NCBI RefSeq assembly: GCF_000196895.1
Contig: NC_014297.1
Span: forward strand, 682,001 to 746,000
Reading direction: 5' to 3'
Length of the DNA: 64,000 bases
Origin: Halalkalicoccus jeotgali B3
GTDB taxonomy: Archaea; Halobacteriota; Halobacteria; Halobacteriales; Halalkalicoccaceae
In this document: piece by piece, positions 1,156-17,665 of the stretch
Layout of the letters: every line of letters begins with the position of its first letter
Numbering within the stretch: the stretch's first letter is position 1
Notes under the pieces: model-generated
What the model was told of the DNA's origin: nothing
The model's input: the letters and a program-made list of their open reading frames with translations, nothing else
Database searches by the model: none
Made by a program: the position numbers and the translations under genes

Positions 1156-2406
1156 ATGGCAATGATCGATTTCTTCCTCGACTCTCCGGTCGTCGCTCTG
1201 CTCGTCATCTCCCTGTGGATCGCGCTGGCCTTGTACGGGCTTTCAGCGGTCTGGTGGCTCGTCGAGACGGTCATCCTCGCGCGCGGGTATGCTGTCGATC
1301 CCGACGAGGCCGAGTGGGGGTTCGACGAGATTCAGGTCCGGATTCTCACCGTTGACGCCGAATCCGTGGTCCAGGCGACCGTCAACGCCGTTCCCGAAGC
1401 GATCGACGACGTCCACGTGATCGCCGAAGCGCCGATCTCGATCGACGGGGCCGCCGTCCACGTCGTTCCCGACGACTTCGAGTGTGAGGCCACCAACAAA
1501 GGACGGGCCGTCGAGTGGGCGCGTCAGACGGTGCCCTGCAGCAAGGAGTACGTGCTATATCTGGACGAGGACACCGTCATGGCCGGCTTCTCGGGGCTTC
1601 CGGATGCGGACGTGATTCAGTTCACCGAGAAACCGATCTACACCGGCTCGCGGGTGGCGTATCTGTGTGAGGTGTTCCGCGTCGGCTACCAGTATGAGCA
1701 GTTCGGGTTCCATCGTCTACGATACCCGCTGTACGCCTGGGGTGGCGGCGTCGCGGTCCGTACGTCCCTCGAAGAACGGGTGACCTGGGACGTCTCGACG
1801 ATCACGGAGGACACGAACTTCATCTGACGTGCGGCCGACGCCGGGTCGATCTCCTTTGCCATGCTCGACTCGCGATTCAGGAACCAGGCGCCGCCGTCGA
1901 TTCGGGCGATGATCCGTCAGCGTCGGCGCTGGATCTCCGGGACGCTCGCCGACGGGGGGCTGTTGCCGCTCCACTATCGTCCGCTGTATCTCACCCGTAT
2001 CGTCGCGTGGGCGTTCTCGCCGCTGGTCCCGATCCTCGTCCTTGCGGCGGCGCTGTTTCCGACGACGGCCCCGACCATGGAGTGGTACCGGCCGATCTCG
2101 CTCATGCTGTTCGGAATGTTGTTCGTCTACATGGCCGTTGGCCTGCTCGGCTATCGCAAGCATCCGCTTTTGTGGCCTCTCTTTATCGTCGCGACGCCGA
2201 TCGCGTTCGTGACCCACTCGATCGGGGCGCTGTGGGGGATCGTTCGGCCGGTGGAAACGTTCGAGGTGACCGAAAAGGTCACCCCCGACGTGATCGAAGA
2301 GCGCCACAACGAGCTCGCTGCGGGCGATCTCACCGACCACGACGGGACCGAACGTCTCGTCCGCGAAAACGAGGGCGCGTTCGTCACGAACGTTTTTGAC
2401 GACTGA
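1156..2406 (+). pseudogene. Family 2 membrane glycosyltransferase interrupted by one in-frame TGA
   Basis: A GT2 transferase of about 416 codons split by a single TGA at 1825-1827. Both halves lie in the same frame. The first half (223 aa) has an N-terminal membrane segment, a LDEDT acidic motif (residues ~136-140), a GGGV segment and TEDTNFI directly before the stop. The second half continues as RAADAG, carries the RQRRRW motif typical of processive GT2 enzymes, then several membrane segments and a soluble tail. Related enzymes commonly have EDTNF followed by an aromatic residue and RAA, so TGG (Trp) to TGA is the simplest history. No frameshift is needed. Alternatives are a sequencing error or two separately translated halves (an ATG exists at 1861). 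It sits next to other glycan genes and probably acted in polymer synthesis at the membrane. Confidence 0.8.
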
Positions 2407-3822: not shown

Positions 3823-4854
3823 ATGAAGATAACAAAATTGACAGACGCGGATCGATGGGAGGAGTTCGTGCGGGAAAACAACGGTCCTGTTTTCGACAGT
3901 TGGACGTGGGGGAAACTCTGTGAGGAGTGTGGCCACCGGACGTACTTCTGGGGCGTCGAGGAGGACGGGGAGTTGCTCGCGTGTCTCCCCCTCGTCTACA
4001 TGCGCAGTCGCCTGTTCGGCGATCAGCTCGTCTCGATGCCCTACAGCGCCTACGGCTCCGTCGTGAGCGCCCCCGATGCCCCCGAAGAGGCCGTTCACCT
4101 CCTGCTCGAACCGGTCCGGGACCTCGCCGACGAACTCGACGTCGACCTCGTCAGCCTCCGGGGACGCGATCTGGGCGACCCACCCGGGTTCGAACGTGCC
4201 GAGCGGTTCGTCACCTTCGACATCCCCCTGACCGGCGACCCCGAGGACGCCTGGGATGCACTCGACGGATCGACCCGCAACCACGTTCGCAAGGCCGAAA
4301 AGAACGGCGTCGAGTACCGGCGGGCGACCTCGAAGGCGGACCTCCGGCGGTACTACGACCTGTATCTGAAGAACATGCGAGCCTTCGGCAGCCCGCCCTA
4401 TTCGTTCTCGTTTTTCACCTACCTCTGGGAGGAACTCGGAGAGGGGATGGTGGTCGAACTCGCACTCAAGGACGACCACCTGATCAACGGCCAGATCCGG
4501 TTTCCCTACGGGGATCGCTGTTTCGACTGGGGCGGGGTCAGCGACTACGAGTACCGCGACCTCCAGGGCGGAAGCTTCCTGCTGTGGAACGCCATCGAGC
4601 GCGCCTGCGAGGCCGGGTACGGGACGTACACGCTCGGCCGAACGCGGGAGGGGACCGGCGTCTACAGCTTCAAAAAGAGCTGGGGCGGCCAGAAGGTCCG
4701 GTTTGCGGACTACCACTACTCTCCTAACGGATCGATCGACCTGCCGGATCCCGACGACGAGAAGTACGACCGCCTCAAAGACGTCTGGGAGCGCCTGCCG
4801 CTGAAGGTAACCGAGCTAGTCGGCCCGCCGATTCGGCGCGATATCAGCCTCTGA
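3823..4854 (+). CDS. FemAB-like GNAT-fold acyl/aminoacyl transferase
   Basis: The 343-residue protein resembles the FemAB/BioF2-like (Acetyltransf_6) group: an N-terminal half beginning FDSWTWGKL and ending with the first GNAT-like fold, then RNHVRKAEKNG at about 150-160, and a C-terminal GNAT half with WGGVSDYEYRDLQGG and FKKSWGG. In bacteria FemAB enzymes move amino acids from tRNA to peptidoglycan, and relatives occur in exopolysaccharide/exosortase loci. Archaea have no murein, so a role in amidating or acylating a surface glycan is an inference from its neighbours. Its 3' end overlaps the convergent GT4 gene by 39 bases. Confidence 0.78.
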   Translation: MKITKLTDADRWEEFVRENNGPVFDSWTWGKLCEECGHRTYFWGVEEDGELLACLPLVYMRSRLFGDQLVSMPYSAYGSVVSAPDAPEEAVHLLLEPVRDLADELDVDLVSLRGRDLGDPPGFERAERFVTFDIPLTGDPEDAWDALDGSTRNHVRKAEKNGVEYRRATSKADLRRYYDLYLKNMRAFGSPPYSFSFFTYLWEELGEGMVVELALKDDHLINGQIRFPYGDRCFDWGGVSDYEYRDLQGGSFLLWNAIERACEAGYGTYTLGRTREGTGVYSFKKSWGGQKVRFADYHYSPNGSIDLPDPDDEKYDRLKDVWERLPLKVTELVGPPIRRDISL

Positions 4855-6015
4855 TCGGGGTTCTTCGAGGATCGACTCGTAGAGGTCGAGATACCGCTCG
4901 GCGATCGAGTCCCACGAGAGGCGATCGCCCTGTAGGGCACTGTTCTCGCCCATCCGGGTGCGTTTCTCGGGGTCCTCGAGCAGGTCCACGATCGCGTCGG
5001 CGAGCGCGTTCGGGTCCTCCGGGGGGACGACCTCGCCACAGCCCGCCTCCCCGACGAGTTTCGAGAACTCGCCCGCCGTCGAGGCGACCACGGGCTTGCC
5101 GAAGGCAAAGGCCGTCGCGAGCGTTCCGCTGTGTCCCTTGGTACCACCGCTCTGGCGCCTGTAGGGGACGGCGACGAGGGCGGCCCGCGAGAAGAACGTT
5201 CCGACCTCGTCGTTGGGGATGAAGTGGTCGTGGATCTCGAAGGTATCGGGATGGCGGTCGATGATTTCGCGTGAGCGCCGTCCGAACCGTCCGTTCCCGG
5301 CGACCAGGAGCGTCGCGTCGGGAACCCGCTCGCGTACGAGCGCCATGGCCTTCACGAGCGTGTCGATCCCCTTTGCGGGGATGATGTGCCCGAAAAACAA
5401 CACCGTGTGGGGCTCTTCGGGGCGTTTCTCGTAGTCGTACTCGCCGAACATGTCGTTGACCCCGTGGGGGATGACCGACACCGACTCCGGATCCGAGACG
5501 CGCTCTCGCAGAACGGTTCGCTGGTTTTCGGTGTGGACGATCGAACGACGGACGTCGAGGTCGGGGATCAGCGCCTCAACGATCCCTTCGAGGGCGTCGG
5601 GCGGTCGCGAGAGCGGAACCCGTTCGACCGGGACTTCGTGGTGTGTCACGACGAACGGGTAGCGCTCGTCGAGGCGGTAGCGCTTCGCGAAGAACTTCAC
5701 CTGCGGGAACAGCCCCGTTGGATCGTGGACGATGTCGGGATCGACCGCCTCGATCAATCGGAGGTTCTTATAGGAGGCCAGCGCCTTCAGGTTGCGCCGA
5801 ACGTCGAAGTTGAACTTCCGCAGCTCCGGCAACGAGATGTTCATCGACTCGAACGTGTTCAGAACCCGCACGTCCTCGGAGAAGACGTCGTCGGCGGTCG
5901 TTTCTTCGGGTTTGAACACTGTCACGTCGGCGTGCTTGGCGACGGCGTTCGCGAGTTGCGCAGCATAGTGAGGGAGTCCGCCGCTGTTTTGAGAAAGCAC
6001 GTACGCTATTTCCAT
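4816..6015 (-). CDS. Family 4 glycosyltransferase (GT-B fold)
   Basis: A 399-residue retaining glycosyltransferase. The N-terminal Rossmann half begins MEIAYVLSQNSGGLPHYA, with the glycine-rich acceptor loop; the C-terminal half has VLFFGHIIPAKGIDTLV (residues ~205-221), the nucleotide-sugar-binding segment AFGKPVVAS and a downstream Glu (TAGEFSKL), as in GT4 enzymes. It is cytoplasmic or membrane-peripheral and presumably adds a sugar to a lipid-linked glycan. The TTATAT-like stretch upstream (about 6040-6050) may be its promoter. Donor and acceptor are unknown. Confidence 0.9.
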   Translation of the reverse strand: MEIAYVLSQNSGGLPHYAAQLANAVAKHADVTVFKPEETTADDVFSEDVRVLNTFESMNISLPELRKFNFDVRRNLKALASYKNLRLIEAVDPDIVHDPTGLFPQVKFFAKRYRLDERYPFVVTHHEVPVERVPLSRPPDALEGIVEALIPDLDVRRSIVHTENQRTVLRERVSDPESVSVIPHGVNDMFGEYDYEKRPEEPHTVLFFGHIIPAKGIDTLVKAMALVRERVPDATLLVAGNGRFGRRSREIIDRHPDTFEIHDHFIPNDEVGTFFSRAALVAVPYRRQSGGTKGHSGTLATAFAFGKPVVASTAGEFSKLVGEAGCGEVVPPEDPNALADAIVDLLEDPEKRTRMGENSALQGDRLSWDSIAERYLDLYESILEEPRSEADIAPNRRAD

Positions 6016-6134: not shown

Positions 6135-6941
6135 TCACCGATCCGACCCGAGAACGACGTCGAACAGGAGGTAAAAGACGGCGCTCCCGAGCAGGCCGAC
6201 GACCGGGAGCGGGGAGACGCCGATCTGTAGCGAGCGACAGAAGTAGGCCATCGCGTCCCGATACTCCCCGTCGTCGTGGCGGTAGTACCCCATCGCGAAG
6301 TACATCTGTCGATAGAAGACGTACGTGAAGGGTCTGACCTCCGGAACGCGCTCGCTGGCGAGTGAGACGTACTTCTTGCCCTCGGTCAGGTAGTGGGTCG
6401 CGTCGATCCGGCCGGACGACATGCTGGTTTCGTGGTATCGGGCGGTGAACGTTTCGCGACAGAAACAGACGCCCTCGCTCGCAGCTTCGAGCGCGAACAG
6501 GTGGTCTTCCCACCGGCCGAGTTCCTCCTCGAAACGCACGTCGACCTGTGCGGTGTCGAGGACGATCGAGGACATCACCTCGTTGAGGTCGCCGACGAAC
6601 AGTTCGTAGAAGAAGTCGTCGCGCGACATCGAAGGATCGCCGTCGAGACAGAGCCCGGCACCGGTTCGGTCCATCCGGACGAGTTGGCGCTCAAGTTTGT
6701 CGGGTTTCCAGAGGTCGTCGGCGTCGAGAAAGGCGACGTATCGCGTCGAGGCACGCTCGATACCGCGATTCCGCGTTGCTGCCGGCCCGCTCCCGTCGGG
6801 GTCCTCGACGACGATGGTTTCGGTCCGAACGGACTGTCGATCGATCGACCGTTTCGCCTCCTCCAGCATCCGTTCAGGCGTATGGGCCGAACTGTAGGGG
6901 ACGACGACCGAGACCGTCGGATCCGACTCCGTCCTCGACAT
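6135..6941 (-). CDS. Family 2 glycosyltransferase
   Basis: I chose the ATG at 6941 because the next gene upstream ends at 6992 and the GT2 fold (SVVVPYSS) begins 11 residues after this start. The product is 268 aa. It has VVVPY, the nucleotide-binding region, FLDADDLW (residues 71-78, metal-binding DxD) and the later ED pair (GRWEDHLF). A hydrophobic C-terminus (about 20 residues, GLLGSAVFYLLFDVVLG) may anchor it to the membrane. It follows the DUF1616 gene by about 50 bases on the same strand and is probably in the same operon. The sugar transferred is unknown. Confidence 0.85.
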   Translation of the reverse strand: MSRTESDPTVSVVVPYSSAHTPERMLEEAKRSIDRQSVRTETIVVEDPDGSGPAATRNRGIERASTRYVAFLDADDLWKPDKLERQLVRMDRTGAGLCLDGDPSMSRDDFFYELFVGDLNEVMSSIVLDTAQVDVRFEEELGRWEDHLFALEAASEGVCFCRETFTARYHETSMSSGRIDATHYLTEGKKYVSLASERVPEVRPFTYVFYRQMYFAMGYYRHDDGEYRDAMAYFCRSLQIGVSPLPVVGLLGSAVFYLLFDVVLGSDR

Positions 6942-6991
6942 ACCTACACAGTCCATGTGGGTGACCTTTACTATTGTGACCCGTGCCCGGA

Positions 6992-7978
6992 CTACCCGCC
7001 GGATTCGGTCACGTTGACCCACACGTACGCGCTCCGGTACGCCTCGCTCCCGTCGATCGTTTCCGGGGGCGTCCCGGTGTAGAGCAGATAGGTCAAGCGC
7101 AGGTTCTCGCCGGCCCGGTCGGGCGTGACGACGTGTTCGTTCTCGACGGTCTCACCGCTTTCGAGCGTGACCTCGAACCGGTCGAGTTCGCTCGCTGACT
7201 GGACGCTCTGTTCGCCCTCCGTCCCGACTTCCTGTAGCTGGATGACGACGGTGTAGGTGGTCGTTACCCCCTCCTCGTTACCGATGCCGACCACCAGCGG
7301 TTCTTCTTGCCCGACGGTTAGCTCGTCGGGATACTCCTCGGAGACGGTCCCGTTGGCCCCTTCCTGAAGGAGGTACAGCTCGGTGTAGCCGTCGCCCTGG
7401 ACGGGCCCCATCGCGTACGCGACGCCAAGCGTGCTGAGGACGACTAAGACCGCCACCCCTACCGCCACCGCCGCAACCGGACTTCCGTCGGAACGCGACG
7501 GTCCGAGAGAGCCAACCGCGTCGATCCACGCCACGGCCGGGCGACCGAACCGCTCGGCCGGCGTAAGCGAGAGTCGTCGGATCGCCCCGATGCCGCCGAA
7601 GGCGACGCTCAGAACGACGAGGATCCCGAGCGTCGTCGAACTCCCCCCGATTCCGGCGGGGGCTCCTCTCGCGATCAGCACCAGGAGTCCGCAACTCGCG
7701 GCGATCGATAGCGCCGCCCGTTCGAGGTGGCCGATCCGAAACCGGCTCCCTTCTGTCTTCGGGCCGGTCGGAGAACGCGGGAACAGGGCCGTGAGGAGGG
7801 CGTAGCCCGGCACGAAGCCGACGAACAGCGCGCGGGCCACGGTTCGAACGGGCGTGTTCTCGAACGCCGGGAGCGCCATCAGGGAGACGATCAGCACGCA
7901 CGAACCGACGGCGATCAGATCGGCGGGCGCTCGCCGGAGCGAGGAGCGACCTGCGCGCCCCTCGACGGTATCTTGCAT
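6992..7978 (-). CDS. DUF1616-type membrane protein
   Basis: The 328-residue protein has two N-terminal membrane segments (about 20-65), two more around 85-135, a fifth near 175-195, and a C-terminal extracytoplasmic domain of about 130 residues with beta-rich character (ELTVGQEEPLVVGIGNEEG, TYTVVIQLQEV). This layout matches DUF1616 proteins, which recur in archaeal glycan and S-layer loci. Function is not established. It is divergent from the beta-helix gene and starts an operon with the GT2 gene downstream. The C-terminal domain resembles Ig-like extracellular modules, so a role in handling exported glycan or protein is possible. Confidence 0.72.
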   Translation of the reverse strand: MQDTVEGRAGRSSLRRAPADLIAVGSCVLIVSLMALPAFENTPVRTVARALFVGFVPGYALLTALFPRSPTGPKTEGSRFRIGHLERAALSIAASCGLLVLIARGAPAGIGGSSTTLGILVVLSVAFGGIGAIRRLSLTPAERFGRPAVAWIDAVGSLGPSRSDGSPVAAVAVGVAVLVVLSTLGVAYAMGPVQGDGYTELYLLQEGANGTVSEEYPDELTVGQEEPLVVGIGNEEGVTTTYTVVIQLQEVGTEGEQSVQSASELDRFEVTLESGETVENEHVVTPDRAGENLRLTYLLYTGTPPETIDGSEAYRSAYVWVNVTESGG

Positions 7979-8195
7979 CGTCCGTACCTACCGTCGCAAC
8001 TGATATAAGTATGACAGTTGCTACGGCGATCGGGTCTCTTAATCCATCACTACCGTCATACGCAGAGAGACGCCCCATCGGCCGATAGCCGTCGTTCTCG
8101 GGACCGATGTCGGTTTGATCGCGCGTATAGTCACTCGTCTAAAACGAGTTGCTATCAATCAATCAATATTTGTCAGAGGAGGACGAAATCATCCT
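7979..8195. promoter_or_regulatory. Divergent promoter region between DUF1616 and beta-helix genes
   Basis: These 217 bases separate two head-to-head genes. An ACTGATATAAGTATG stretch near 8000-8014 lies just upstream of the DUF1616 start, and an AT-rich stretch ending in a GAGGAGGA ribosome-binding motif (8176-8183) precedes the ATG at 8196. No gene is evident inside. Confidence 0.45.
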
Positions 8196-9470
8196 ATGGG
8201 GAGAGAGGAGGTGGTGACGGCCGAGCAGTTAGAGCGACTCGTCGACCGGCGGATCGAGCGGCGACTGGCCGAGATGACAAACGAGTACGCTTCGGGGCGG
8301 GTCCCCGACGTGATCGAGGAGGGCGTCTCCAGGCGGGAGGCGATGGCGATAGCGGCCGGCGGCGTCGCTGGCTACGGCGTCTCGACGCTGGTCGGTGGGG
8401 ACGGATCGGGGGGTGGGACCATCGTCGGCGAGGGGACCGACGACGAAGACGGCGGTGCGACGGCCGCGGACCTCCAGCAAGCGCTCGAGGACGAATCGCT
8501 CGTCCGGATCTCGGGCGAGATCGACCTCTCTGGAGAGACCCCGATCACGATCCCGCAAAACACCATCCTGTGTGGCAACGGGGTCTATCGCCAGTCCCTC
8601 GATCGCATCGGGGGCGACGGGCTGCGCGCCGACGACGAGGGGCCGTTGGTGGAGATGAGCGAAAACGACATCCAGGTGCTCGGTCTCGCGGTCGTGAACA
8701 CGGGCGAGGGGGGCGATGCGATCTCGATGAACGGCTTTTCGGGGCGGATCTCGCATACGGACCTGTTCGCGACGCGCTACGGGATCGACTGTGCGCCCGA
8801 CGAGCGCACCACTGAACCGCGGATCAACTTCAATCGCGTGATCTCGACGACCGGTGCGGACGGCGAGAGCGTCGGTATCCGGGTCGAGAACATGAACGAC
8901 GCGAAGGTGATCAACAACATCGTCGCGGGGTTCGACACCGAGATCGCGATCCTCCTAGAGAGCGCGATTGTCTCGCTGAACCACACCTACACCTTTCCGG
9001 CGTCGGGATCCTCCGTCGGGATTCGGGTCGACGCCCCCGCGGTCCGTCTCGTGAACAACCGGATAGAGGGCAGCTCCGAGCGAGCCGGTATCGAGATCAC
9101 GGCCAGCGAGCGCTCGATCGTCTCCCAGAACCTCGTTCAGGTCCCCCCCGGGGCGGACGGGATCGCCCTCGATGTCGGCTCGGAACTGATTGACAGCTTC
9201 ATCGCGTACAACCAGATCGAGGGCTACTCCTCCGACGAGATCGCCAGCACGGCCATCAGCGCGTCGAACGTCGATACCTTCGACCGATGCGTCGTCAGCC
9301 CGAACACCGCCCGCCACTTCGAAACCGAGGGGCTAACGGGGGTCGTGGAGGCGGCCGGTGCCGGAGGAACTCCGAGTGCACAACGGTACTTCTCGTATCA
9401 GGCGGTCGAGAACATCGACGACAACAGCCTCTGGATGAAGGCGAGCGAGGGAATGTATCGGATCGCGTAA
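8196..9470 (+). CDS. Right-handed beta-helix protein with internal Tat-like segment
   Basis: I chose the ATG at 8196 because GAGGAGGA lies 12 bases upstream. The 424-residue protein has a charged N-terminal helix (residues 1-40), then SRREAMAIAAGG (45-56) with a following hydrophobic run, a Gly/Asp-rich linker (65-85) and a long body of short repeated strands (RINFNRVIS, VKVINNIVA, IVSQNLVQ, FIAYNQIEG) typical of parallel beta-helices related to pectate lyases and glycan-binding proteins. The Tat-like motif starts only at residue 45, later than usual, so it may be an anchor rather than a cleaved signal. It sits in the glycan locus and may bind or process polysaccharide. No catalytic residues can be assigned. 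Confidence 0.75.
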   Translation: MGREEVVTAEQLERLVDRRIERRLAEMTNEYASGRVPDVIEEGVSRREAMAIAAGGVAGYGVSTLVGGDGSGGGTIVGEGTDDEDGGATAADLQQALEDESLVRISGEIDLSGETPITIPQNTILCGNGVYRQSLDRIGGDGLRADDEGPLVEMSENDIQVLGLAVVNTGEGGDAISMNGFSGRISHTDLFATRYGIDCAPDERTTEPRINFNRVISTTGADGESVGIRVENMNDAKVINNIVAGFDTEIAILLESAIVSLNHTYTFPASGSSVGIRVDAPAVRLVNNRIEGSSERAGIEITASERSIVSQNLVQVPPGADGIALDVGSELIDSFIAYNQIEGYSSDEIASTAISASNVDTFDRCVVSPNTARHFETEGLTGVVEAAGAGGTPSAQRYFSYQAVENIDDNSLWMKASEGMYRIA

Positions 9471-11699
9471 CTACGATTCGTTCCTGCCGAACTGCTGGCT
9501 TTCGGTCCCTTCGTAGCGGAACACGTCGGCTTCGCCGCTGGTGTAGACCTTGTTCGTGGACCGCTCGATGGCGTCGCGTTCGGCTTCCGTGAGGTAGTAC
9601 TGGGGCGTTTCGCCGTCGTACGCGGTCCCGTCCACGACGGCCCGATCGCGGACGTAGACGTACCCCTCGGAGAACTCGATACCGGGCAGCCAGTCGACCT
9701 TGATCTGTCTCACGCTCGCGTCCGAGTAGGTCTCCGGGACGATCGCCCTGAACATTTCACCGGTGTAGCTGTCCGTGTAGATCACCGGGCTCCCCGTGCT
9801 GGTGTCGTCGATCCACTCACCCCCGTCGATCTCCGCATCGGTGTACGCAAGCGAGTGGGTGTCGGCATCCAGACCGATGTCCGAGGTGACCGGTTCCCCG
9901 ATCGCGTTGTAGGCGACCCCGGTGTTGAGCAACAGAAGCACGGCCAGCGCCACAAGAACCGGCCGCCAGATCCCCGTATCGATGTCCCGGATTCCGCTGA
10001 GGAGACCCACGAGGGCGAGGTAACCGACCGGCATGAATCCTGCCAGCAGCGTGAGAACGATCTGGTACATCCGGTCGGCGCCGAGATTGCCGCTGACGAA
10101 GTACGAGGCACCCAGGAACATCAGCATCGGAACCGCGAGTATTGCCAGTCTGATCGGCTCGGTCGGGCGCGACTCCTCGGGCGAGAACAGCCGGACGAGT
10201 ATCTGCGACAGGACGCCGATCCCCGCCAACCCCATCAGGGCCATGTGGAGCAACAGGGTACTCGTGTAGGCGATTCCGGACTCCTCCTGGACGGCGCTCG
10301 CCCCCGAACGGTGGATGCTCTCGCCCGAGAGAACCGCGTAGATCTGCGTCGGGATATCCGCGAGCACGCCGGCCACGTTCTGGAGCATTCCCGGCGTCGT
10401 GATGGCGTACCAGCCCACCGCCGCGCCGCCGAACGCGACCGCGTAGACGCCGGCGATTCGCAGGCCGGCGTCCTCGCCCGAGTACGCCCTATAGATCCAT
10501 CCGAGGCCGTACGCGACCCCCAACGAAATGACGAAGATGTAGGTCGTGGTGTAATGCGAGAGGATCATCCCGGCCCCGAACAGCGCCCCGATCCACTCCT
10601 TGCCGGGGAGTCGTTCCCTGTCGGTGACCATCGTGAGAATCACCAGGATCATGAACAGCTGGGCGATGCGCGTCTTCCCCGGCGTCCCGTTGAACGACCG
10701 GAAGTAGAACACGAAGAAGTACGCCCCGACGAACGCGGCGTCCTTTCCGAAGACGTCCTCGAACGTGTAGTAGAGTACCACCGGGACCAGCGCGAACAAC
10801 AGCGAGTAGAGGAGCTTGAACACCATCGCGGGGTCGATACCCGTCACCACCGAATAGACGGCCGGAACCGCCCCGACGACCGGAATCGAGGAGTAAACGT
10901 CCCCCATCGCCGGCTCCCACGCACCCGCCTCGAGCAGCAACTCGACGAAGAAGTAGTTGACCTGAATGTCCGAACCGACGACCGCACCGGTGATCAGGTT
11001 GCGATGGAGGACGATCCCCACGGCGACGGTGAACACCGCAAGCGGGTAGAGCCGGGACGGGACCACCTTAATCGAGACGAGCACCACGACCGCTACCGCC
11101 AAGAGAAACGCGTACATCAGGCGGTTGCTCCCGATGGCGTTCATGCGCCCGGCCGCCAGCGCTGAGAACAACGGCAAACAGACGAGCACCGCGCCGATCG
11201 CGGCGTCCCGGGACGAGAACGACGGGACACGAACCACGAGGCGTCGATCGCGCCAGTAGGCGACGCCCATCGCTCCCATCGTCACCGCACTGACCGTGAG
11301 GGCGAACGGGAGAACCGAAAGGGGCGCATCGATACCGACCAGCGAATAGAGGACGCTCGTGAGGACGCTCGTGGCGGCGAGAAACACCAGGCTCGACCCG
11401 ACCGCGTACACGAGGAGTTCCCCGAACCGGTCGATGCGGTTGTCGATCAGCACGAACAGCATCGTCCCCGGGACGACCGTCAGAAACAGGATCCCGAAGA
11501 CCGCCCGTAGCAGGGACACCCCGACGCCGGCCACGGGGACCCCGACCGTGGTCCAGAACGCGACGAGGAGACAGCCGATCAGAACGGCGATCGAGCGACC
11601 CTGCAACCGGATCTCCCGAAACGACTGCTCTCCGTTGGCGGGCGTCCCGGTCTTCGCTCCGGATCGCGAGCGTCGTACCGATCCCTCCCCCGGTGTCAT
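9471..11699 (-). CDS. Polytopic membrane protein, DUF2206/GT-C-like
   Basis: The 742-residue protein has about 12-14 membrane segments between residues 35 and 600 and a C-terminal soluble domain (about 610-742) with TDSYTGEMFRAIVP and AEIDGGEWIDD. The overall plan resembles archaeal DUF2206 proteins and GT-C glycosyltransferases: a large extracytoplasmic loop after the first membrane pairs (GSDIQVNYFFVELLLEAGAW, with acidic residues), then many helices. It may transfer sugars from a lipid carrier outside the membrane or polymerise the glycan, but this is inferred from topology and context. Its stop codon directly abuts that of the convergent beta-helix gene. Confidence 0.7.
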   Translation of the reverse strand: MTPGEGSVRRSRSGAKTGTPANGEQSFREIRLQGRSIAVLIGCLLVAFWTTVGVPVAGVGVSLLRAVFGILFLTVVPGTMLFVLIDNRIDRFGELLVYAVGSSLVFLAATSVLTSVLYSLVGIDAPLSVLPFALTVSAVTMGAMGVAYWRDRRLVVRVPSFSSRDAAIGAVLVCLPLFSALAAGRMNAIGSNRLMYAFLLAVAVVVLVSIKVVPSRLYPLAVFTVAVGIVLHRNLITGAVVGSDIQVNYFFVELLLEAGAWEPAMGDVYSSIPVVGAVPAVYSVVTGIDPAMVFKLLYSLLFALVPVVLYYTFEDVFGKDAAFVGAYFFVFYFRSFNGTPGKTRIAQLFMILVILTMVTDRERLPGKEWIGALFGAGMILSHYTTTYIFVISLGVAYGLGWIYRAYSGEDAGLRIAGVYAVAFGGAAVGWYAITTPGMLQNVAGVLADIPTQIYAVLSGESIHRSGASAVQEESGIAYTSTLLLHMALMGLAGIGVLSQILVRLFSPEESRPTEPIRLAILAVPMLMFLGASYFVSGNLGADRMYQIVLTLLAGFMPVGYLALVGLLSGIRDIDTGIWRPVLVALAVLLLLNTGVAYNAIGEPVTSDIGLDADTHSLAYTDAEIDGGEWIDDTSTGSPVIYTDSYTGEMFRAIVPETYSDASVRQIKVDWLPGIEFSEGYVYVRDRAVVDGTAYDGETPQYYLTEAERDAIERSTNKVYTSGEADVFRYEGTESQQFGRNES

Positions 11700-11758: not shown

Positions 11759-13192
11759 TCAGGCCGGTCGGACCATCGAGACGAGCATTCGTATCCCCGG
11801 TCTGACAACCTCTCTGCGGAGCGAGGGGACGACAAAGGAAAACAGGAAGTAGCTGGCGACGCCCGCACCGATACAGCTCGCGAGCAACGCGATTCCACCG
11901 AACGGGAGCGCCGCGCGCACCCCGACGACGACCAGTCCCATCGCCGCCGCGCTGACGAGACACCACGCGATCAGTCGGTAGGGGATCTGCAGGGTGATGT
12001 TCTGCGAGAGATACCGGGCGTTGAGGAGCGTCTGGACGATCGCGGCGCTCGTCGTCGCGATCGCCGCACCCAGTAGCCCGATCGAGAGGACGAGCGCGAC
12101 GTTGAGCACGAGGTTGATCGCGATCGTCACCACCACGGCCCGCGCGACCAGATCCACCCGGTCGATACCCCGGAGGGTGCTTCCGAGGACGTCGTTTACC
12201 GACTGGAAGACCTTTTCGAGCATCAACACCACGAGGACGCCGGCAGCGATCGTATACTCCGAGCCGAAGATCACCGCGAGGACCTCGTAGTTCAACACGA
12301 CGATCCCGACGAACGCGGGAATCGAGAGGAACAGCGCGATCCCGATCGCGTTCGGGACGACGGCCTCGATCCGGTCGATGGCGGCCTCGGAACTCCACTG
12401 GCTCATCTGAGGGAACAGCGTGATCGAGAGCGTCTTACTCACCAGCAACACCAGCAGCGTCACCTCCCAGGCGACCTCGTAGGCCCCGACGTCCGCGTAG
12501 GTCAGAAACAGCCCGATGATCGCGACGTCCATCCACTGGTAGACCTTGCCGCTGACCGACGAGAGGAAGTAGTACTTCGCGTAATCGTACAGCGACCACG
12601 CCGAGAGTTCGGCCGGGCGTCCGACCGTCGTCTCCAGTTTTGCGAAGGCCCAGCAGGCGGCCGTCGCCGACCCCAACACGAGCCCGTACATCAACCCGAT
12701 CACGCCGTAGCCGGCCGCGACGAACGCCAGTCCGCTCGTGACCCACACCGCCTCGCGGGCGAACTCGATGATGGCGGTCTCGCCCACGCGCAGTTCGCCC
12801 CGCACCGCCTGGATGAACAGGTCGGCGAACTCCTGGACGACGAGGGCGACGACGAGCAACGCCGTGTACTCGCCGCCGAGATAGCCGTTGAGGTACGGCC
12901 GAGCCAGGAGGAGTACCCCGATCGCCCCGGAGACGGTGAGCAGTTTGAGCGCCATCGCGGTCGCGAGCATCGTATCGGGACGTTGCCCCTCGCTCAAGCG
13001 TTTCTCGAGGGCACCCCGCACCCCGACGTCCGCGACGATGGTCGTCAGTCCGAGCACCGTCTGGAAGAGGAAGAACACCCCGATCTGGCTGGCGCCCAGC
13101 TCGCGGGCGAAGACCGTGATCCCGGCGAAAAAGACGACCGCATTGCCCCCCTTCGCGAGAAAGACCTTTAGCGCTGACCGGGAGAGATCCAT
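11759..13192 (-). CDS. Wzx/MATE-type oligosaccharide flippase
   Basis: The 477-residue protein has about 12-14 membrane helices and the N-terminal pattern of polysaccharide export flippases (LAKGGNAVVFFAGI, then FARELGASQIGVFFL). It probably flips lipid-linked oligosaccharides across the cytoplasmic membrane. It lies 59 bases upstream of the DUF2206-like gene in the same direction, a sensible order for export followed by transfer or polymerisation outside. A weak AT-rich promoter (GTTATATATTC) precedes its start. Confidence 0.88.
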   Translation of the reverse strand: MDLSRSALKVFLAKGGNAVVFFAGITVFARELGASQIGVFFLFQTVLGLTTIVADVGVRGALEKRLSEGQRPDTMLATAMALKLLTVSGAIGVLLLARPYLNGYLGGEYTALLVVALVVQEFADLFIQAVRGELRVGETAIIEFAREAVWVTSGLAFVAAGYGVIGLMYGLVLGSATAACWAFAKLETTVGRPAELSAWSLYDYAKYYFLSSVSGKVYQWMDVAIIGLFLTYADVGAYEVAWEVTLLVLLVSKTLSITLFPQMSQWSSEAAIDRIEAVVPNAIGIALFLSIPAFVGIVVLNYEVLAVIFGSEYTIAAGVLVVLMLEKVFQSVNDVLGSTLRGIDRVDLVARAVVVTIAINLVLNVALVLSIGLLGAAIATTSAAIVQTLLNARYLSQNITLQIPYRLIAWCLVSAAAMGLVVVGVRAALPFGGIALLASCIGAGVASYFLFSFVVPSLRREVVRPGIRMLVSMVRPA

Positions 13193-13299: not shown

Positions 13300-14406
13300 T
13301 CACCCGTCGTACAACGAGAGAACCCCCGAGAGGATCTCGCGACACGGCGGGCGGAGCGACCCGTGATCGCCCCCGTCGGCGAGCAACGACAGGAGGTAAA
13401 ACAGCGGGAGTCCCGAGTAGGTCTCCGAGTCGCCGTACGCGAGCGGGCCGACCTCCCGGGCGTAGTCGGCGGCGATGTCGCCGCCCGTCCCCCGACCGGC
13501 CATCATCTGCACGAACAGCCGGTGAACCGGGGCGTCGTACTGATGGATGACGAACGGCCTGAAGAAATCGTCGATAACGTAGTCGGTCCGGACGTCCTCC
13601 CAGTCGAGGACGTAGACGGCGTCGTTCACGAAGAGGTTGCCGGCGTGGAGGTCGCCGTGAACCGGCCCCCGGTAGAGGACCGGCGGCAGGTCGAGATCCC
13701 CGAGGAGTTCCAGTCCCGAACGGACGAGTCCGTCGAGTTGGCCCGCGGCCGAAAGCGCCGTTTCGAGCCCCGTGAGAACGTCCTGGGTCGAAACGGAGTG
13801 GCGGTCGGTTTCGTAGAGGGCGGTGAGTTGGACGAGTGCGTCGAGCAGCAACTTCCACTCCTCGACGGGATCGTCGAGTTCCCGTCCGTCCAGATACCGC
13901 TTGACGACGTACGGGTACTCGAGGTCGTATTCGAGCATCGCCGGCGTGTTGATCGACTCCGGCAGTCGCCGGCGGCGCTCGATCTCGCGCCGGAGTTTCT
14001 CCGGGTCGTCGGTGGCGATCGTACAGACCCGCCGCGCCTCCAACCCGAGCAGCGTGATCCGGTCGCCGATGACCGCGACGTCGAACGGGTCCTCGGCGTC
14101 GACGGAGAGGGTTTCCGAGCGAATCCCGGGGAGGGCGGGGAGCAACTCCGGGACGGTGAGGGCGGCTCTGAGCGCTCCGGCTCCGAGGAGACTCTTCCAG
14201 CCGCCACCGCCGACCCGATCGACGACCCACTCGATAGCCCCGGCCTTCGGCCGAAACGCGTACGTGTTGTAGCTCCCGGTATCGAGTACCATGTACCGCT
14301 CCGCCGCCGGCGTCACCCCTCGGTAGTCGTAGAACGCCCCGATCCGATCGAAGATCCCCTCCCGATCGAACGATCGCGGCGGTGCCGTCTCGATAGCGTT
14401 CCCCAT
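13300..14406 (-). CDS. APH-fold kinase in the glycan locus
   Basis: The ATG at 14406 follows a TATA region at the correct distance. The 368-residue protein has an aminoglycoside-phosphotransferase/choline-kinase catalytic core: HGDLHAGN at 250-257 (catalytic Asp and Mg-binding Asn) and LDWED at 267-271 (Mg-binding Asp). The N-terminal 100 residues are less typical and include a VIEW-like small lobe (AIEWVVDRVGG). Family members phosphorylate small hydroxyl-bearing molecules. Here a sugar, a glycan end or a lipid carrier is the likely substrate, judged from the neighbours only. It is followed by the flippase gene after about 100 bases. Confidence 0.75.
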   Translation of the reverse strand: MGNAIETAPPRSFDREGIFDRIGAFYDYRGVTPAAERYMVLDTGSYNTYAFRPKAGAIEWVVDRVGGGGWKSLLGAGALRAALTVPELLPALPGIRSETLSVDAEDPFDVAVIGDRITLLGLEARRVCTIATDDPEKLRREIERRRRLPESINTPAMLEYDLEYPYVVKRYLDGRELDDPVEEWKLLLDALVQLTALYETDRHSVSTQDVLTGLETALSAAGQLDGLVRSGLELLGDLDLPPVLYRGPVHGDLHAGNLFVNDAVYVLDWEDVRTDYVIDDFFRPFVIHQYDAPVHRLFVQMMAGRGTGGDIAADYAREVGPLAYGDSETYSGLPLFYLLSLLADGGDHGSLRPPCREILSGVLSLYDG

Positions 14407-14531: not shown

Positions 14532-15332
14532 CTATCGGAACGGGAGGACCTCCCGGAGCAGTCGCTGCCAGCGCCGGTCCCCGTCGACCATCCCCTCGAC
14601 GTCCCGCCGGTCGTGCTCGCGCATGACCGTGATCCGGGGGAGGGCCATCGGGGCGTCGAAATCGACGACGTCCGAGCCGATCACCGTGGTCGCGCTCTCG
14701 TATCCCGCGTTCTCGACCAAGCGCGCGGCCGTTCGATCGAACGCGCCGTAGGGATAGGCGAAACTGCGCGGGCGCTCGCCCGTGATCGTTTCGATGGCAT
14801 CGCGCGAATCGACGATCTCCCGGCGGGCGGTTTCCCGGTCGACCGTCGTCAGGTCCGGATGTGTCATCGTGTGGGCGCCGATCTCGTGGCCGTGTGCGTC
14901 GAGGTCGAGGACCTCCTCTCGGCTCATGACCCGCCTTCCCTCGAATCGTTCGCCGAGCAGTCCCGGAACCACGTAGTGTGTCGCCGCCACACCGTTGGCC
15001 TCGAGGATCGGTAGCGCCGTCTCGACGGTCGATCGGAACCCGTCGTCGAAGGTCACGACGGCCGGGTTCCGCGGCAGCGAGTCCCGCCGCCACCGGTCGA
15101 TCGCCCCGCTCATCGTGAGGGGTTCGAACGCGTCCGCGAGCCACTCTATCTGTCGCCGGAACCGTCCCGGCGTGACGGTCCACGGTCCTCCCGACTCGTC
15201 GATGCCGTGATAGAGGACGATCGGACAGCGGATCCCGTCGGGGTGGTAGCGGTCCTTGAGGGTGGCCCGGAACGCACGATCCACCCACAGTCGGCCGTTC
15301 TCTCCCGCGATCATATCCGTGTCCACGCCCAT
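14532..15332 (-). CDS. Polysaccharide deacetylase (NodB-type)
   Basis: I placed the start at 15332 (ATG), about 33 residues before the conserved fold; an ATG at 15314 is also possible. The 266-residue protein carries the CE4 motifs: LYHGI (40-44), TFDDGF (94-99, catalytic base and metal-binding Asp), HTMTHPDL (metal His154 and His158) and RSFAYPYGAFD. No signal peptide is evident, so it may act inside the cell or be released another way. It would remove N- or O-acetyl groups from the glycan made here. The gene is 125 bases upstream of the kinase on the same strand. Confidence 0.88.
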   Translation of the reverse strand: MGVDTDMIAGENGRLWVDRAFRATLKDRYHPDGIRCPIVLYHGIDESGGPWTVTPGRFRRQIEWLADAFEPLTMSGAIDRWRRDSLPRNPAVVTFDDGFRSTVETALPILEANGVAATHYVVPGLLGERFEGRRVMSREEVLDLDAHGHEIGAHTMTHPDLTTVDRETARREIVDSRDAIETITGERPRSFAYPYGAFDRTAARLVENAGYESATTVIGSDVVDFDAPMALPRITVMREHDRRDVEGMVDGDRRWQRLLREVLPFR

Positions 15333-15478
15333 CACCGACCTAACGGTGTCGGTCGAGTTACATACCACCCGGACGATCGGAGTTCCGGCCCGACGGGGCT
15401 CCGTCGGTGGCGTCAACTCGCGGCGTCCGAACGCGTCGGCGGCCCCTTGATGGGACTTGCGGGCGGCCGTGCCGCTTC

Positions 15479-16390
15479 CTATCGATTGAACATCCGTTCG
15501 TGTCGGTTATATCTCTCGAAGAGCTGCCGACACGTCCCGAACTCGTGTGTGGCAAGCAGGCTGTCGAGGACGTCGCGAGTTTGATCGAGCCCGTGGAAGC
15601 TGATGAATCGCTTGTGAAGGGGCGGCTCGTCGGTTCGCACGGCGGGGTTGAACTCCCAGGGATGGAAGTAGATCATCGCGGGGAGTCCGCGCTGATTGAG
15701 GTTCCTGATCCCCATCTCGACCAGCCTCGTCGGGAGGAGCCGCCCGTAGAACCCGCCCGCGATCGGGAGTCGGAGCCGCGGGTGGAACGTGGCGATCGGG
15801 AACTCGACCAAGCCGTTCGCGCTCGCCGACCCGTCGGTAAACGGCGCGTCGGGATCGACCCGGTACGGGTGAAGGGGCGCGCCGTTGACCCCGTACATCG
15901 GGGTCTTGACCGGAAACACGCTGGAGTCGTACAGGTATCCCGCCTCGACGAGCGCGTCGAAGGCCCACTGCGTTCGTGGCGTCACCGAGAAGTTCGGCGC
16001 TCGAAACCCGATCGGCCGTCGGCCGGTCGCTGCCGCAATCGCCTCGGCGCTCGCCTCGAGTTCCTCGGCGAACGCCGTCCGCGTGAGATCGAACAACGGC
16101 GTGTGGGTGTGCCCGTGGGACGCGACCTCGTGACCGGCGTCGGCGATCCGTCCGATCAGGGTCGGGTACTCCTCGGCAACCTCTCCGACCGTAAAGAACG
16201 TCGCGAGCGTGTCGTGTTCCGCGAGCATGTCGAGGACGATCCCGACCGACGTCCTGATCCGATCCGCCGGATCGGTCACTTCGTCTCTCAACAGCGTCGC
16301 CGAGTACCAGTGTTCGAGGTCGAACGAGATGACGTTCGCTACCTGTTCGCCGGATCCGCTCTGCGTGCCACCCCCCATGTGAAACGACAT
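15479..16390 (-). CDS. Polysaccharide deacetylase, DUF3473 type
   Basis: The 303-residue protein has the NodB motif variant SFDLEHWY (residues 22-29), SHGHTHT (91-97; metal-binding His), GFRAPNFS and a C-terminal FHPWEFNP, the signature of the DUF3473 deacetylases found in bacterial exosortase/exopolysaccharide loci. It likely acts on the acetylated glycan, perhaps at a different position from the first deacetylase. An in-frame ATG at 16378 is an alternative start. It is separated from the other deacetylase by about 146 bases and may have its own promoter. Confidence 0.88.
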   Translation of the reverse strand: MSFHMGGGTQSGSGEQVANVISFDLEHWYSATLLRDEVTDPADRIRTSVGIVLDMLAEHDTLATFFTVGEVAEEYPTLIGRIADAGHEVASHGHTHTPLFDLTRTAFAEELEASAEAIAAATGRRPIGFRAPNFSVTPRTQWAFDALVEAGYLYDSSVFPVKTPMYGVNGAPLHPYRVDPDAPFTDGSASANGLVEFPIATFHPRLRLPIAGGFYGRLLPTRLVEMGIRNLNQRGLPAMIYFHPWEFNPAVRTDEPPLHKRFISFHGLDQTRDVLDSLLATHEFGTCRQLFERYNRHERMFNR

Positions 16391-16519: not shown

Positions 16520-17665
16520 CTATCTGCGATTGGCGACCCGCATCGCGTGGAGGATGACGGCGGCGATACAGGCGAAAAAGCCGCCGAACCAGAACAGGGC
16601 CGACAGCGTCGTAAGGAGAAACGAGAGCGACCCCGTCGCGAGGTAGTCGGCGACGAGCCAGTAGGTGCCACTGACGCCGAAGAGGAGGGACACCAGCCCC
16701 GGGAGCCCGAGACTGAGCAGCGGGTGTGCGTTCTGGACGGTCGTCGAGATGTTGTTGACCAGGTTGTAACCGTGCGAGAACGGGTCGTAGCTGCTCGCGT
16801 TCTCGACGTCGTACCGGACGTCGATGCCGATTTCGTCGATATCGTACCCGCGTTGGTGGGCGTGATAGAGGATGTCCGTGCTGGCGTTCATGTGACTCCC
16901 GATCGCCGCATCCTCGGCCAGCCCCACGATCGCGCGGCGGTTGTACGCCCTGAACCCGCTTTGGGTGTCCGAGATGCGTTTGCTCGGGCGGAACGCGCCG
17001 ATACTCATGTTCGTGAGTGCGTTGACGACGAACAGGCCGGCCCGTCGGTACGGCGGTGCGTTGGTGCTCGCGCCGTCGCCGAACCGACTCCCGATGACGA
17101 TCTCGGTGTCGTTCTCGCGCTGTGCGGCGACGAGCCGCGGGACGTCCGCCGGGTCGTGTTGGTTGTCGGCGTCGAGGATCACGAGGTGGCGTGCCCCCTG
17201 CTGGTCGGCCGCCTGGAACAGCGTCTTGAGCGCGGCTCCGTACCCCCGGTTGTACTCGTGTTGGATGACGCTTGCCCCCGCCTCGCTCGCCACGAGTGCG
17301 GTCTCGTCGCGGCTCCCGTCGTCGACGACGATCACCCGGTCCCCGAACTCGCTGGCCGATTTGACGACGCTTGCGATCGAGTTCGCCTCGTTGTACGCCG
17401 GGATACCGATGACTACCGACGGGGTCCGTTGTAGGGTGGCTCCGGTCGAACTCGACCCCGCAGTGGCGTCGGTTCGCTCGGCGGGGGTGCTCTCGGCGTT
17501 GGCGTACTCGGCCGGCGTGCCCTCGCTCGCTCGCTGGACCAACTCCAACCCGTCGCCCGACCGCCCGGTCAGCGAACCCGTCTCGAACCCCCCGTCAGTC
17601 ACGGCCCGACCACACTCGGAACAGATTCCGCCGAATACGTCTCCAATGACATCTGCGCGACCCAT
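16520..17665 (-). CDS. Dolichol-phosphate-mannose-synthase-like GT2 with CxxC leader
   Basis: A 381-residue transferase. Residues 1-80 are an unusual leader with one CxxC pair (Cys15, Cys18) and a low-complexity Thr/Ser/Ala/Glu stretch. The GT2 domain starts near 82 (VVIGIPAYNEA), with VVDDGS, LDADNQHDP (metal-binding DxD type) and DTQSGFRAYN. Two or three hydrophobic segments at 310-375 anchor it. Such enzymes load sugars onto polyprenyl phosphate at the start of glycan assembly. It is the first gene of the minus-strand deacetylase/kinase/flippase series. The leader resembles half of a zinc ribbon. Confidence 0.85.
   Translation of the reverse strand: MGRADVIGDVFGGICSECGRAVTDGGFETGSLTGRSGDGLELVQRASEGTPAEYANAESTPAERTDATAGSSSTGATLQRTPSVVIGIPAYNEANSIASVVKSASEFGDRVIVVDDGSRDETALVASEAGASVIQHEYNRGYGAALKTLFQAADQQGARHLVILDADNQHDPADVPRLVAAQRENDTEIVIGSRFGDGASTNAPPYRRAGLFVVNALTNMSIGAFRPSKRISDTQSGFRAYNRRAIVGLAEDAAIGSHMNASTDILYHAHQRGYDIDEIGIDVRYDVENASSYDPFSHGYNLVNNISTTVQNAHPLLSLGLPGLVSLLFGVSGTYWLVADYLATGSLSFLLTTLSALFWFGGFFACIAAVILHAMRVANRR

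Follow-up and report, generated by a model that had tools for sequence, protein, structure and literature searches.

Bacteria have three-component systems that extend a glycan beyond the membrane; they consist of a polyprenyl-phosphate sugar synthase, a flippase of the MATE family, and an enzyme of the membrane-embedded glycosyltransferase (GT) class GT-C (PMC11127046). In the haloarchaeon Haloferax volcanii, AglD, AglR, and AglS add a sugar outside the cell for the N-glycan (PMC3871713), and the acidic exopolysaccharide (EPS) of Haloarcula hispanica needs AepG, a dolichyl phosphate (DolP)-glucuronate synthase, the rest of whose pathway is reported as unknown (PMC9943897). Here, we describe a stretch of 64,000 nucleotides from the archaeon Halalkalicoccus jeotgali B3 (contig NC_014297.1, positions 682,001 to 746,000 of the forward strand; “the window”), in which genes for a DUF2206-like membrane protein, an exported beta-helix-like protein, and a DUF1616 protein lie together. 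On balance, we read the DUF2206 protein as a GT-C glycosyltransferase that works at the outer face in a haloarchaeal exopolysaccharide locus, with DUF1616 as its likely partner.

The locus is like the bacterial systems, whose GT-C enzyme is of the GT136 type, in its kinds of part: a GT2 similar to polyprenyl-phosphate sugar synthases, a MOP/MATE-type flippase, and a predicted GT-C protein in one polysaccharide locus (PMC11127046). It differs in being archaeal, in that the three genes are noncontiguous, in a GT2 that scores below NCBIfam cut-offs, and in a GT-C protein that has an extra N-terminal module in common with DUF1616. The likeness to AglD-AglR-AglS is one of scheme, both being haloarchaeal, and the DolP-linked sugar that is made inside, carried across, and transferred outside by a membrane enzyme in that system having its counterpart in what we propose here; however, that system finishes the N-glycan of an S-layer protein, whereas the window neighbors are of the EPS type (PMC3871713). 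The AepG-dependent polymer is another EPS of haloarchaea, for which a DPM-like GT2 has to supply a DolP-linked sugar; its outer-face transferase is reported as not known (PMC9943897). The GT66 enzymes AglB, STT3, and PglB are the closest solved folds over residues 211-730 of the DUF2206 protein, which differs from them in having no match to their sequence family, no WWDYG-like motif, and an EPS-type neighborhood. Bacterial XrtA/PEP-CTERM exopolysaccharide loci have in common with the window relatives of FemAB (TIGR03019) and of a polysaccharide deacetylase (TIGR03006), both below curated cut-offs here. ExoK and ExsH are members of GH16. As secreted glycanases of the succinoglycan locus that act on the locus product, they resemble what we propose for the GH16 proteins found near DUF2206 (PMC4916376); the window genome, in contrast, has no GH16 match and a beta-helix protein instead. 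A literature search with preprints and most subscription papers outside its cover did not find the name DUF2206; the name DUF1616 turned up in one paper.

Predicted fold of the DUF2206 protein

A first-pass annotation, made from the letters of the window, had placed the three genes side by side between glycosyltransferases and a flippase. This arrangement holds, since all three open frames are present, look coding, and carry the expected families, with a GT2/GT4 pair on one side and a MOP/MATE-type flippase on the other. The three genes and their parts (TM, transmembrane; HMM, hidden Markov model; AF2, AlphaFold2) are as follows.

9471..11699, minus strand: DUF2206-like membrane protein, predicted GT-C glycosyltransferase, 742 amino acids (PF09971, E 8.6e-27; AF2 model; GT-C structural neighbors)
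9510..11069, minus strand: GT-C core and C-terminal outer domain of the same protein, residues 211-730 (range of the VIA model comparison with STT3/PglB/AglB; D244, H382, and R543 conserved)
11205..11612, minus strand: N-terminal membrane module of the same protein, residues 30-165 (hhalign and HMM cross-matches to the DUF1616 membrane half)
6992..7978, minus strand: DUF1616 protein, 328 amino acids (PF07760, E 1.7e-69), four TM helices followed by a fifth TM and an acidic outer domain, as predicted from hydropathy and charge
6995..7420, minus strand: DUF1616 outer domain, residues 187-328 (27 D+E against 4 K+R in the part beyond the last TM)
8196..9470, plus strand: exported beta-helix-like protein, 424 amino acids (PF13229, E 1.7e-4, below cut-off)
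8328..8396, plus strand: twin-arginine-like signal or anchor of the same protein, residues 45-67 (SRREAM...), called from sequence, with a weak hydrophobic peak at 49-67 and RR invariant in 4/4 orthologues

DUF2206 is the sole Pfam family matched at E<=0.1 by the 742-residue protein, at 94.4 bits against a curated cut-off of 35.6, and the match covers residues 373-705 only. An AF2 model computed from an 11-sequence alignment that includes the window protein (predicted local distance difference test [pLDDT], 79.2; predicted template modeling score, 0.84) confidently gives the protein a GT-C glycosyltransferase fold, in line with the topology noted in the first-pass annotation. In Foldseek, each of the top 17 rows is a GT-C chain or a complex with such a chain in it (STT3, PglB, AglB, AftA, and ALG9; E 3e-6 to 3.8e-3). 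With VIA-align, the best match is yeast STT3 (Z 22.4 over 424 residues; root-mean-square deviation, 5.2 Å), followed by AglB (21.5), PglB (19.6), DPY19 (17.7), AftA (17.4), and ArnT (16.6); rows are GT-C or GPI-transamidase-complex chains down to Z 9.3, and the first unrelated chain stands at Z 7.2. A sequence search of the PDB gave no match for the DUF2206 protein and only chance-level matches for the beta-helix protein, and a comparison with PHROGs gave no match.

In GT-C enzymes, the first outer loop bears an acidic residue, and an acidic active site was among the checks named in the first-pass annotation. In the model, D244 lies in that loop, just after the first core helix (residues 215-236) of a multi-TM core. 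Across 38 DUF2206 proteins, including that of the window (the others are 16-76% identical to it), D244 is found in 33, the remaining 5 being gaps; H382 and R543 are invariant (38/38), W261 is found in 33/38, and W430 is found in 37/38.

Because STT3, AglB, and PglB are the best structural matches, and the match takes in the C-terminal outer domain, the protein could be read as an oligosaccharyltransferase-like ligase whose glycan acceptor is a protein or lipid of the cell surface. WWDYG is the motif of oligosaccharyltransferases, but WW[DNE] is absent from all 38 DUF2206 proteins, and the window protein has no match to the STT3 Pfam family at E<=0.1, so membership in GT66 is not supported. With EPS-type genes in the locus as well, we regard a ligase as improbable.

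A membrane module common to DUF2206 and DUF1616

Ahead of the GT-C core, the N-terminal ~130 residues of the DUF2206 protein form a membrane module that is detectably homologous, by profile comparison, to the membrane half of DUF1616. In hhalign, the module matched that half with a probability of 92% (P 6e-7; score 45.2; 87 columns), whereas control segments (three other parts of DUF2206 and three from flippases) reached at most 2.1%, and null scores were at most 23.0 for 60 shuffles within ten-column blocks, 13.65 for 60 full shuffles, and 16.65 for the reversed profile. When the proteins predicted in the loci were searched with an HMM built from the module, it found, besides DUF2206, nine DUF1616 proteins at E<0.1 (1.3e-5 to 0.014) and a tenth at E 0.27; the first match that was neither DUF2206 nor DUF1616 came at E 0.45. 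In Pfam, DUF1616 was the family most commonly matched by the modules (4/27), but with a best E of only 0.063, and the window's own DUF2206 module had no DUF1616 match there. The two proteins may therefore be described as sharing module A (four helices), joined in DUF1616 to part B (one helix and the outer domain) and in DUF2206 to the GT-C core.

The window DUF1616 protein matches PF07760 over its full length (profile positions 4-307 of 307). HVO_2173, a DUF1616 protein of Haloferax, is listed as N-glycosylated by AglB, including at the peptide LVRGEPASLVLGVGNQE (PMC8241124), which by eye resembles LTVGQEEPLVVGIGNEE, a segment of the window protein after its last helix. This likeness to an N-glycosylated peptide, together with the charges of part B, would place that part outside the cell.

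Linkage was assessed by comparing 40 DUF2206 loci (~20 kb each; 3 from Halalkalicoccus) with 38 control loci that have a flippase without DUF2206; 40 controls had been fetched, and L121 and L136 were dropped for a DUF2206-like frame (E<1e-10). A DUF1616-type frame occurs in 18/40 DUF2206 loci against 7/38 controls (p 0.016), a count that favors the DUF2206 loci since its profile was built from them. The 18 comprise 8 full-length frames (L052-L056, L065, L087, and L088) and 10 of part B only (L063, L064, L072, L073, L078, L081, L082, L084, L085, and L090). In L063, the part-B frame is directly upstream of DUF2206 on the same strand, and in L084, its stop codon lies one base before the DUF2206 ATG. 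From homology and linkage, DUF1616 is a likely partner of DUF2206.

Elsewhere in the window genome (3,698,650 bases in 7 contigs), another DUF1616 copy (L103; G000:C1:312000-331500) stands, as judged by eye, with glycosyltransferases and beta-helix-like and deacetylase-like proteins, repeating the theme. The DUF1616 copies of L102, L106, and L107 stand, again by eye, near DUF58- and MoxR-like genes, which suggests more than one DUF1616 subfamily or context.

Layout and gene content of DUF2206 loci

The beta-helix gene runs opposite to its two neighbors, meeting DUF2206 tail-to-tail (the genes end at 9470 and 9471, respectively) and diverging from DUF1616, so the trio does not form one operon. 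The order flippase-DUF2206-beta-helix-DUF1616-GT2-GT4-FemAB-epimerase, with its strands, is kept in 3/3 loci of the same genus (L052-L054), so the trio is no chance reading. Halalkalicoccus paucihalophilus encodes a DUF2206 relative 70% identical to that of the window, and DUF2206 is also found in Haloferax mucosum and Haloferax massiliensis. In all six near-complete Halalkalicoccus genomes, DUF2206 and the beta-helix protein are either both present (G000, the window genome, G002, G004, and G006) or both absent (G001 and G003), with the exception of one weak DUF2206 fragment in G001.

These observations bear on the alternative that there is no module and the three genes merely co-reside in a glycan island that gathers such genes. 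The beta-helix gene, on its opposite strand and restricted to the genus, fits that alternative, as do the DUF1616 frames in 7 of the 38 flippase loci without DUF2206 and the copies beside DUF58/MoxR-like genes. The homologous membrane module, the one-base coupling in L084, the kept gene order, and the joint presence or absence in the genus all speak against it, and we consider mere co-residence possible but doubtful.

The neighbors of the trio include an epimerase gene and the following.

11759..13192, minus strand: MOP/MATE-superfamily flippase (PF13440, E 1e-16; MatE, E 2e-7)
16520..17665, minus strand: candidate donor-making GT2, similar to polyprenyl-phosphate sugar synthases (NCBIfam PpgS, 119 bits, and AglJ, 102 bits, both below cut-off)
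4816..6015, minus strand: GT4 glycosyltransferase (relatives in 13/40 DUF2206 loci vs 0/38 controls)
6135..6965, minus strand: GT2 glycosyltransferase (PF00535, E 1.7e-12)
3823..4854, plus strand: FemAB/XrtA-type acyl- or aminoacyltransferase (TIGR03019, 211.7 bits; cut-off, 260)
15479..16390, minus strand: XrtA-type polysaccharide deacetylase (TIGR03006, 214.5 bits; cut-off, 276)
14532..15416, minus strand: second polysaccharide deacetylase (PF01522, E 2.8e-30)
13300..14406, minus strand: APH-type kinase adjoining the flippase, conserved in the genus but without a relative in any of the other 37 DUF2206 loci

Counts for relatives of window proteins come from single-sequence searches, and those for GH16 and DUF1616 come from a separate comparison. 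Relatives of the candidate donor maker occur in 19/40 DUF2206 loci and 0/38 controls (p 2.5e-7), those of FemAB in 15/40 and 0/38, those of the deacetylase at 15479-16390 in 12/40 and 0/38, and those of the epimerase in 18/40 and 8/38 (p 0.03). DUF2206 loci and controls did not differ in relatives of the flippase (25 vs 18), the APH-type kinase (3 vs 0), the deacetylase at 14532 (4 vs 0; p 0.12), or the GT2 at 6135 (4 vs 0; p 0.12). Iterative profiles for two GT2 labels (GT2b and GT2c) drifted together, and the GT2c count (32/40 vs 9/38) was set aside; iterative counts for the deacetylases (17 vs 1 for that at 14532, 14 vs 0 for the other) and FemAB (16 vs 8), subject to the same drift, were replaced by the single-sequence counts. 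Near the start of the window, a GT2-type glycosyltransferase frame (1156-2406, plus strand) is broken by an in-frame stop at 1825-1827; its labeled relative in a locus of the same genus (L052:17644-18714) is uninterrupted, at 356 amino acids.

A flippase is the next gene to DUF2206 in 18/37 of the loci listed outside the window. Wzy_C is absent within 20 kb of DUF2206, with 42 matches in 22 of the 47 genomes that have DUF2206; the smallest distance to any DUF2206 match is 24 kb (G119, below cut-off), and for the single match of the window genome it is 262 kb. Both observations would suit a DUF2206 protein that is itself the locus polymerase and that, in the manner of Wzy, links complete lipid-borne repeat units en bloc on the outer side, and the closest folds are those of oligosaccharyltransferases, which use lipid-linked oligosaccharides (PMC10920833). 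The DUF2206 protein itself has no match to Wzy_C (PF04932) at E<=0.1. Known polymerases and O-antigen ligases fall in GT-C groups other than GT-CA (PMC10920833), the group that DUF2206 resembles, and a GT2 of the donor-maker kind is enriched in DUF2206 loci. A polymerase, the main rival to transfer from a monosaccharide donor, is in our judgment rather unlikely.

Beta-helix-like protein and other putative glycan-active neighbors

All four orthologues of the window beta-helix protein match both PF13229 and NosD at E<=0.1, which is consistent with the beta-helix named in the first-pass annotation, but both profile scores of the window protein lie below curated cut-offs (PF13229, 21.7 bits against 25.9, E 1.7e-4; NosD, E 8.4e-4). 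Two of the four also match CdrL_M (PF24252; best E 0.00099). Relatives of the window beta-helix protein do not differ in frequency between the two sets of loci (3/40 DUF2206 loci, all of the genus, vs 0/38 controls). Exported beta-helix proteins of other genera, unrelated to that of the window, are found at or near the same position by DUF2206: one family, alike in sequence by eye, is found in L058, L059, L063, and L067 (in L067 tail-to-tail with DUF2206), and further ones are found in L055/L056 (PF12708 for L055) and L076 (PF13229). Among the matches listed, which reach down to E of about 1e-5 and 6e-5, a beta-helix protein lies within 5 kb of DUF2206 in G275, G269, G281, and G207. Outside Halalkalicoccus, this link is one of proximity only, and in a profile comparison of the window beta-helix with those of other loci, the best probability was 0.18%, no better than controls.

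A secreted GH16 protein occurs in 8/40 DUF2206 loci and 0/38 controls. Across the 292 genomes of the class surveyed for DUF2206, DUF1616, GH16, and beta-helix proteins, GH16 occurs in 15/47 genomes with DUF2206 against 17/245 without (p 1.1e-5). Its distance from DUF2206 is 1.2-13.1 kb in 11 of these genomes (G025, G064, G091, G108, G114, G132, G188, G243, G255, G258, and G284), and because these span 7 genera, they are not 11 independent events; in the remaining 4, it is 48 kb (G294) or 91 kb (G012) away or on another contig (G288 and G002). It seems that the position by DUF2206 is filled by different glycan-active proteins, which would fit polymers of different structure, and the GH16-DUF2206 linkage could help to predict beta-glucan-like exopolysaccharides. 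Sulfatase/phosphotransferase-like proteins also recur near DUF2206 (L064:14898-16181, PF00884, E 1.5e-15; by eye, L060, L069, L072, L073, and L082) and are possibly polymer-modifying enzymes.

Proposed role

Donors in the GT-CA class are mostly lipid-phosphate monosaccharides, and GT66 is the exception (PMC10920833). Given this habit, and with each of the three kinds of part represented in the window, we infer that the donor is a polyprenyl-phosphate sugar and the acceptor an exopolysaccharide, a reading favored by analogy over that of a polymerase. The GT2 at 16520-17665 would load a sugar onto polyprenyl (dolichyl) phosphate, the MOP/MATE flippase would carry the lipid-linked sugar to the outer leaflet, and the DUF2206 protein would transfer the sugar onto a glycan that is still growing or already complete. 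D244, H382, and R543 would lie in the active site of this enzyme or close to it. DUF1616, with its copy of the N-terminal membrane module and its outer domain, may physically accompany DUF2206 as partner or scaffold. The exported beta-helix protein, replaced elsewhere by GH16 or another beta-helix, may trim, modify, or bind the polymer outside.

Several observations weigh against this proposal. A GT2 of the donor-maker kind is found in only 19 of the 40 loci; that of the window does not adjoin DUF2206, and its NCBIfam scores are below cut-off. DUF1616 also occurs far from DUF2206 and is much the more widespread (245/292 genomes, against 47/292 for DUF2206), its enrichment over other flippase loci is moderate (p 0.016), and since the compared genomes are mutually related, this and the other p values are optimistic. 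For the beta-helix protein, a model from two sequences reached a pLDDT of 40 and was discarded, the best period (24) was equaled by 53/500 shuffles, and orthologues are genus specific (4/292 genomes clear, plus 2 weak fragments).

Of the co-occurrence named as a check in the first-pass annotation, the link between DUF2206 and DUF1616 stands, but orthologues of the beta-helix protein do not reach beyond the genus. Similarly, its common module finds support in the DUF2206 fold and, through the common membrane module, probably in DUF1616, but the exact trio is conserved only within Halalkalicoccus. An extracytoplasmic polymerization or processing role for the trio remains reasonable. More speculatively, DUF1616 and DUF2206 might together make up a single archaeal complex for polysaccharide assembly at the outer face that replaces Wzy and is built on the common four-helix module, fused in DUF2206 to a GT-C enzyme and in DUF1616 to a scaffold or acceptor-binding outer domain; such a complex, which we hold to be possible more than probable, could be the transferase or the polymerase of haloarchaeal exopolysaccharides.

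If the proposal is true, the role of DUF2206 would supply a missing step in the assembly of archaeal slime coats from surface polysaccharide, with addition of side chains to the polymer and polymerization as the two candidate outcomes of the predicted transfer. It provides a candidate that can be tested, putative active-site residues for mutation, and, in DUF1616, a probable partner that most of the sampled genomes of the class encode.

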